NCBI GenBank assembly: GCA_902634795.1
Contig: CACPLK010000005.1
Location: 1-51,991, forward strand
Direction of reading: 5' to 3'
From: an uncultured Prochlorococcus sp.
Lineage (GTDB): Bacteria > Cyanobacteriota > Cyanobacteriia > PCC-6307 > Cyanobiaceae
Length of the DNA: 51,991 bases
Shown piece by piece: positions 51,054-51,991 of this stretch. How positions within the stretch are numbered: position 1 is the stretch's first letter; each line of letters starts with the position of its first letter. The notes beneath the pieces were generated by a model. The model was not told the DNA's origin. It made no database searches and saw nothing but the letters and a program-made list of their open reading frames with translations. Made by a program: the position numbers and the translations under genes.

Positions 51054-51892
51054 ATGACTTCAATAAAACCAGCAGAACTATTAAAAGGTGAAGGTCTTCC
51101 TGATTACGATAAAATCACCCCGAACGAGATCTCTGAAAATATACCCAAACTGATAAAAGAACTAAATGAAAAATTAAATAAATTCGAAGAACAACTCGAA
51201 AAACAATTACCAACCAAAAGCTCTCTAAGTTGGGAAGATGTAATGCCTCAACTTTATGAAATAGGTGAAAAGCTTAGGTGGAGTTGGGGAGTTGTAAGTC
51301 ATTTGAATGCTGTATGCAATTCCTCTGAACTACGTGAGGTTCATTCAAGTCAGCAACCTACAATCGTTAGATTTAGTAATCAACTGGCTCAAAACGAAGT
51401 CATTTATAAGGCACTCTCAAATTTAAAAAAGCATGGAAGCATAAAGGATGAAACACAAATCAGAATAATTGACACAGAGCTAATAACTATGAAAAACAAA
51501 GGAATTGGTCTAGAAGCTGATGAAAAAGCACTATTTAATTCTCGCAGTGAGCGATTAGCTGAATTATCAACTACGTTTAGTAACAATGTATTAGATGCAA
51601 CTAAGAATTGGAGTCTTTTATTAAAAAACAAGTCAGAAGTCGAAGGTCTTCCTGAAAGAGCTCTTGAAACATTGGCTCATGCGGCAAAGGAAGCTGGTGA
51701 TAAAGACGAAGAAGGTAATGATCCATCAGCCTCAAATGGCCCATGGAGAGTTGGTCTAGACATGCCTAGGTACATTCCTTTTCAAACTTATGCGAAAGAT
51801 AGACGTGTCAGAGAAAAAGTTTATAAAGCCTTTGTAAGTAGAGCTAGCGATGGAAAGATTAACAACAAAAAAATAATTGAAGAAATTCTAGA
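51054..51892 (+). CDS. prlC: Oligopeptidase A (M3 peptidase), N-terminal part, broken by inverted junction
   Basis: About 279 codons of a zinc metallopeptidase of the M3 family (full length about 680-700), which degrades small peptides in the cytoplasm. Family segments include SWEDVMPQLYEIGEKLRWSWGVVSHLNAV and LDMPRYIPFQTYAKDRRVREKVYKAF. The frame runs correctly to IIEEIL and then becomes 12 unrelated residues before a TAA at 51927-51929. The catalytic HEFGH motif lies beyond the break. The sequence after about 51887 belongs to the opposite strand of the same gene (next entry), so this is not a natural truncation. It starts 16 bases after ndhD. Confidence 0.9.
51887..51892. other. Inverted chimera junction in prlC
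   Basis: TCTAGA here is its own reverse complement and is shared by the two prlC pieces: forward it follows IIEEI, and on the reverse strand it follows ASFYL. A short palindromic overlap at the switch point is what one expects when a growing end re-primes on the complementary strand during multiple-displacement amplification. An assembly error or real inversion gives the same picture in this window alone. Confidence 0.8.
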
Positions 51893-51991
51893 TAGAAAGA
51901 TGCAATTTTTTGGCCATCTAAATTTTTAACATTGAAGAATCGGACATCTTCATGCCATAAAGGAGCGGTATTACTTGCTTCTTCAATGTCA
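51887..51991 (-). CDS. prlC: Internal prlC fragment, inverted (partial)
   Basis: Reading the reverse strand inward from the window end gives an open frame: DIEEASNTAPLWHEDVRFF, then NVKNLDGQKIASFYL. The segments LWHEDVRFF and GxxIASFYL are the strand that precedes the catalytic domain of M3 oligopeptidases, roughly 100-150 residues past the point where the forward copy breaks. It belongs to the same gene as the preceding entry but in the opposite direction. It should be joined to the forward part only after the true order is checked. Confidence 0.85.

Follow-up and report, generated by a model that had tools for sequence, protein, structure and literature searches.

Origin of the question

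The last gene of the contig examined here reads as an ordinary peptidase and then collapses into foreign residues and a stop codon, which raises the question of whether the organism carries a rearranged gene at this locus or whether the contig end is an artefact. The window, i.e., the whole stretch of DNA that was analyzed, is the complete contig C5 (51991 bases), and its final base is the final base of the contig. The source assembly comprises 1,112,239 bases in 69 contigs, is 61% complete and has relatives in Prochlorococcus. From this completeness, the number of contigs and the AG numbers of the relatives (borne by all 22 named relative loci) we infer that the genome stems from a single cell; PMC6122165 lists plates AG-311, AG-363, and AG-402 among those of single cells whose DNA was amplified with MDA or WGA-X.

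Two pieces of one peptidase gene

In relatives the locus holds an M3 oligopeptidase gene of 703 codons. All 22 named loci have it without interruption and with the HEXXH motif (as HEFGH) at residue 489. One intact relative (L032) has TOP_N and Peptidase_M3 domains by Pfam. The best NCBIfam match is oligopeptidase A with 598 bits, which lies below the cut-off of 927, so that the name prlC is approximate. At the same site, 28 of 36 other genomes of the genus have an open frame of 703–708 aa, while in one (G018) the gene runs into a contig end and seven are without a match (some genomes are probably shared between this set of 36 and the 22 named loci). The G018 contig (L030, G018:C30:4-750) stops inside the same gene near residue 255, and its match to relatives runs to within 3 bases of its end with no inverted tail apparent.

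The frame at the end of contig C5 (51054–51929, 291 aa) matches relatives up to codon 280 (GAT, 51891–51893) and continues as RKMQFFGHLNF and a stop. The initial annotation had described this collapse with 12 foreign residues; the collapse is real, and the count comes down to 11 as the first of the 12 (D) is native. Read on the reverse strand, the 105 nt from 51991 to 51887 fall on gene positions 1182–1286, with 86–100 of 105 bases identical in all 22 named loci; in a separate search with the tail, the match to L031, the locus most distant from contig C5, was limited to 84 nt at 72.6%. The earlier proposal that the reverse strand encodes a more C-terminal part of the same peptidase is thereby borne out, the residues concerned lying downstream of the forward part (Table 1). 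Pfam agrees with this placement, as the forward end matches Peptidase_M3 at profile positions 2–42 (18.5 bits) and the reverse peptide at positions 159–191 (17.3 bits); both stretches are short and score under the cut-off of 27, compared with 477 bits for an intact relative.

Table 1. Features at the end of contig C5 (window coordinates).
Feature	Position	Strand	Basis
Genuine 5' part (codons 1–280) of M3-family oligopeptidase gene (prlC/oligopeptidase A-like)	51054..51893	+	Colinear with uninterrupted genes of relatives; TOP_N and start of Peptidase_M3 by Pfam
Junction overlap TCTAGAT, 7 nt	51887..51893	.	Equals gene positions 834–840 and, inverted, 1280–1286
Second piece of the peptidase gene in reverse orientation (positions 1286 to 1182, residues 395–429), reaching the contig end	51887..51991	-	Alignment to relatives, Pfam; split likewise in 3/3 relatives
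False 3' end of the open reading frame: 11 foreign residues and a stop made by the joint	51894..51929	+	Translation of the frame, comparison with relatives

Alignment to a complete genome, which the initial annotation had proposed as a check for the last 1 kb, was run for the whole window against 80 kb of the complete relative G002, with blocks of at least 90 nt listed. Positions 1–51893 form a single minus-strand block at 90.6% identity, whereas 51887–51991 align to the plus strand at 89.5%, opposite to the first block and 446 nt further along the same gene. It is clear that contig C5 is colinear with G002 from base 1 up to the joint and inverted beyond it.

Nature of the joint

The joint thus consists of an inverted second piece that lies 446 nt away in relatives and overlaps the first by 7 nt. 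The palindrome TCTAGA had been named as the meeting point, which is correct, the full common stretch being one base longer (TCTAGAT). When inverted pairs of sites 50–10,000 nt apart within this window were joined at random, a fraction of 8.9 × 10−4 of one million draws shared at least 7 bases. The label “fold-back” fails if taken literally on the plus strand, since the piece derives from 446 nt downstream and not from the contig's own end. A self-complementary snap-back was rejected, as the tail's longest matches elsewhere in the window reach 14 nt (exact) and 15 nt (93% identity).

A true rearrangement of the chromosome would have to be a 439-bp inversion (gene positions 841–1279) between TCTAGAT and ATCTAGA that privately knocks out the peptidase gene. 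The inverted bases of the contig are exactly the left side expected of such an event; the contig ends before any second breakpoint, so the bases alone also fit a simple inversion in place, and the right breakpoint was not found in the assembly among the best 40 of 77 candidates. The relatives speak against this account. The joint (32 bases, 3 mismatches allowed) is present in 1 of 41 genomes of the genus, which is the genome of contig C5 itself, and is found in 0 of the 40 others, including 0 of the 17 that are at least 90% complete (many of the 41 are incomplete). A second strain with the same inverted order, which would have spoken for a natural arrangement, did not appear among them. The two inverted 7-mers are both retained in only 5 of 22 named loci, which leaves no conserved invertible site, and with the joint missing from the 40 other genomes this leads us to reject an inversion shared or conserved among relatives. 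Given these counts, together with a gene that is uninterrupted in every named locus and a contig that terminates 98 bases beyond the joint, we regard a private inversion as very unlikely.

Invertible DNA switches, in which a segment between inverted repeats is read in the opposite sense, offer the nearest natural parallel. Contig C5 is similar in that the segment concerned lies between inverted repeats and reads in opposite orientation. It differs in that the repeats are 7 nt long and poorly conserved and lie within a coding gene, and in that among the 40 other genomes none has the inverted orientation, while a natural invertible segment would be expected to show conserved repeats and both orientations among relatives.

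A second copy or a continuation of the gene was also sought elsewhere in the assembly: among the best 40 of 77 candidates, a query covering the remainder of the gene and the following 3.7 kb (L032:5800-10834) matched nothing but the two pieces in the window.

Comparison with published chimeras

The orientation, distance, and overlap of the joint are within the ranges published for phi29/MDA chimeras. In the consulted sections of the report on one amplified E. coli cell, 406 of 475 chimeras were inverted, 337 of the 406 inversions joined sites separated by less than 10 kb, and at most of the joints 2–21 nt were complementary (Lasken and Stockwell, 2007, PMC1855051). The corresponding sections of a study with non-bacterial data give overlaps mostly of 5–8 nt with a peak at 6, distances from 0 to more than 5000 nt with a peak at 250–300, and about 70% inverted joints (Tu et al., 2015, PMC4595205). 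The joint studied here resembles these cases in being inverted, in staying in the same neighborhood, and in its short complementary overlap. It differs in being seen in an assembled contig, while the chimeras described in those sections were seen in reads, and its distance is above the published peak, which counts somewhat against a chimera though it is within range.

Chimeric molecules have been built into contigs in the same genus before. Single-cell work on Prochlorococcus MED4 reports a chimera approximately every 10 kb and two assemblies with seven chimeric contigs each (PMC2731171); those contigs linked non-contiguous regions, whereas contig C5 has a short tail at its end. A further point against a chimera comes from a single-cell workflow with 21-mer normalization and SPAdes in which, by the portion of the description used here, 100 bp are trimmed from each contig end (PMC5519541). 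Such trimming should remove many chimeric tails, if it was applied to this assembly, and if the assembly did pass through that workflow, the original chimeric tail would have been about 200 bases long.

Survey of other contig ends

We also surveyed both ends of contigs 1–40 of 69, i.e., 80 of 138 ends. An assessment was reached for 77 of these: an open frame was the sole criterion for 52, another 24 were mapped, and the last is the window end, which alone has a clear inverted join. That the other 76 yielded no further clear case counts against the chimera reading, and clear inverted tails are rare in the surveyed part of the assembly.

In 52 of 80 ends, 100 or more codons free of stops run up to the last base, which argues against a chimeric tail there, although a short or in-frame tail is still compatible with it. 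Comparison of the terminal 150 nt of each end with all 80 ends (1.5–2.5 kb each) revealed no near-identical sequence in opposite orientation; the matches that did occur in this orientation are diverged repeats (74–88%), both inside C8 and C36 and from one of these contigs to the other. Diverged repeats of this sort (71–88%, some on opposite strands) are common to the ends L065 and L084 (C8), L074 (C17), L077 (C20), and L112 and L132 (C36), and the assembly may have been interrupted at these ends by a repetitive region.

Among the other 28 ends, three repeat ends (C8 start, C17 start, and C36 end) were dropped unmapped. The last 200 bases of 24 ends, and of the window end as a control, were mapped to three relatives (best 40 of 67–97 candidates per genome). 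The control was split in 3 of 3 relatives, and for 21 of the 24 one or more relatives were colinear with almost the full 200 bases (for the C34 end, to within 11 bases). For the remaining three (C7 start, C25 start, and C25 end), 800 bases were searched in 41 genomes, with at most the best 12 candidates per genome. Three of these genomes (G003, G007, and G016) are colinear with the C7 start up to its outermost base.

The C25 start is colinear until 35–41 bases from its end, and these outermost bases match other sites in relatives on either strand, which suggests a variable region. A cobalamin riboswitch (RF00174, 53.5 bits) lies nearby at L101:106-252. The C25 end aligns in G034 as two weak pieces (82% and 69%) that are inverted, 3.3 kb apart, and have about 4 nt in common. 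It is not counted as a second inverted join, since in G003 and G022 the same parts are found on one strand and in the same order with other spacing, and since several relatives have multiple copies of its last 155 bases (L121:2346-2500). The reverse strand of these bases, judged by eye, resembles the end of a high-light-inducible (hli) protein.

Proposed origin of the contig end

It is very probable that the contig end is an inverted chimera that arose when the DNA of a single Prochlorococcus cell was amplified by a phi29-type method (MDA or WGA-X). In this account a growing strand whose end, TCTAGAT, lay at gene position 840 would have been displaced. Its last 7 bases would then have paired with positions 1280–1286 of another displaced strand close by, on which it was extended in the opposite sense. 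The equivalent event on the other strand would be an end at 1286 that re-primes at 840. The assembler would then have followed the chimeric molecules, the deposited contig stopping shortly past the joint.

Displaced-strand priming and self-priming would both fit the joint, because on the complementary strand the jump goes upstream, a step that a hairpin could equally take. The discussion of mechanism in PMC1855051 sets hairpin self-priming aside since joins occurred equally upstream and downstream. By our own inference this argument may be weaker than it seems, as a single product yields one case on one strand and the opposite case on the other.

Of the two origins offered by the initial annotation, an amplified single cell or a misassembly, the first is thus favored. 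The position of the joint at a contig end speaks for a purely computational error, in which the assembler joined two correct pieces. The k values of SPAdes exceed 7 nt. The common stretch is therefore too short for a k-mer assembler of this type to join on, and chimeric reads would have been needed, which makes such an error extremely improbable. It seems reasonable to conclude that the joint was probably already present in the amplified DNA, having arisen in amplification and been carried by the reads. A chimera from library preparation instead of amplification deserves mention, since such steps also join molecules, as PMC2731171 describes for 454 jumping libraries; but the pattern that PMC1855051 and PMC4595205 describe for phi29 is one of neighboring pieces in inverted order that overlap by a few bases, and the chance of a library origin is accordingly minute. 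We therefore consider the last approximately 100 bases of contig C5 to be almost certainly an amplification artefact of a known kind rather than a feature of the organism.

Implications for annotation

The last 98 bases of the contig are to be trimmed, with the cut at 51893, and the 291-aa frame is to be treated as a gene that is incomplete after codon 280 and not as a short peptidase. The warning that a false truncated gene would be annotated from the contig as it stands holds, since this frame would be called with its 11 false residues. Deposited contigs of this type can thus still end in an inverted tail, and the joint matters only as a caution for annotation.
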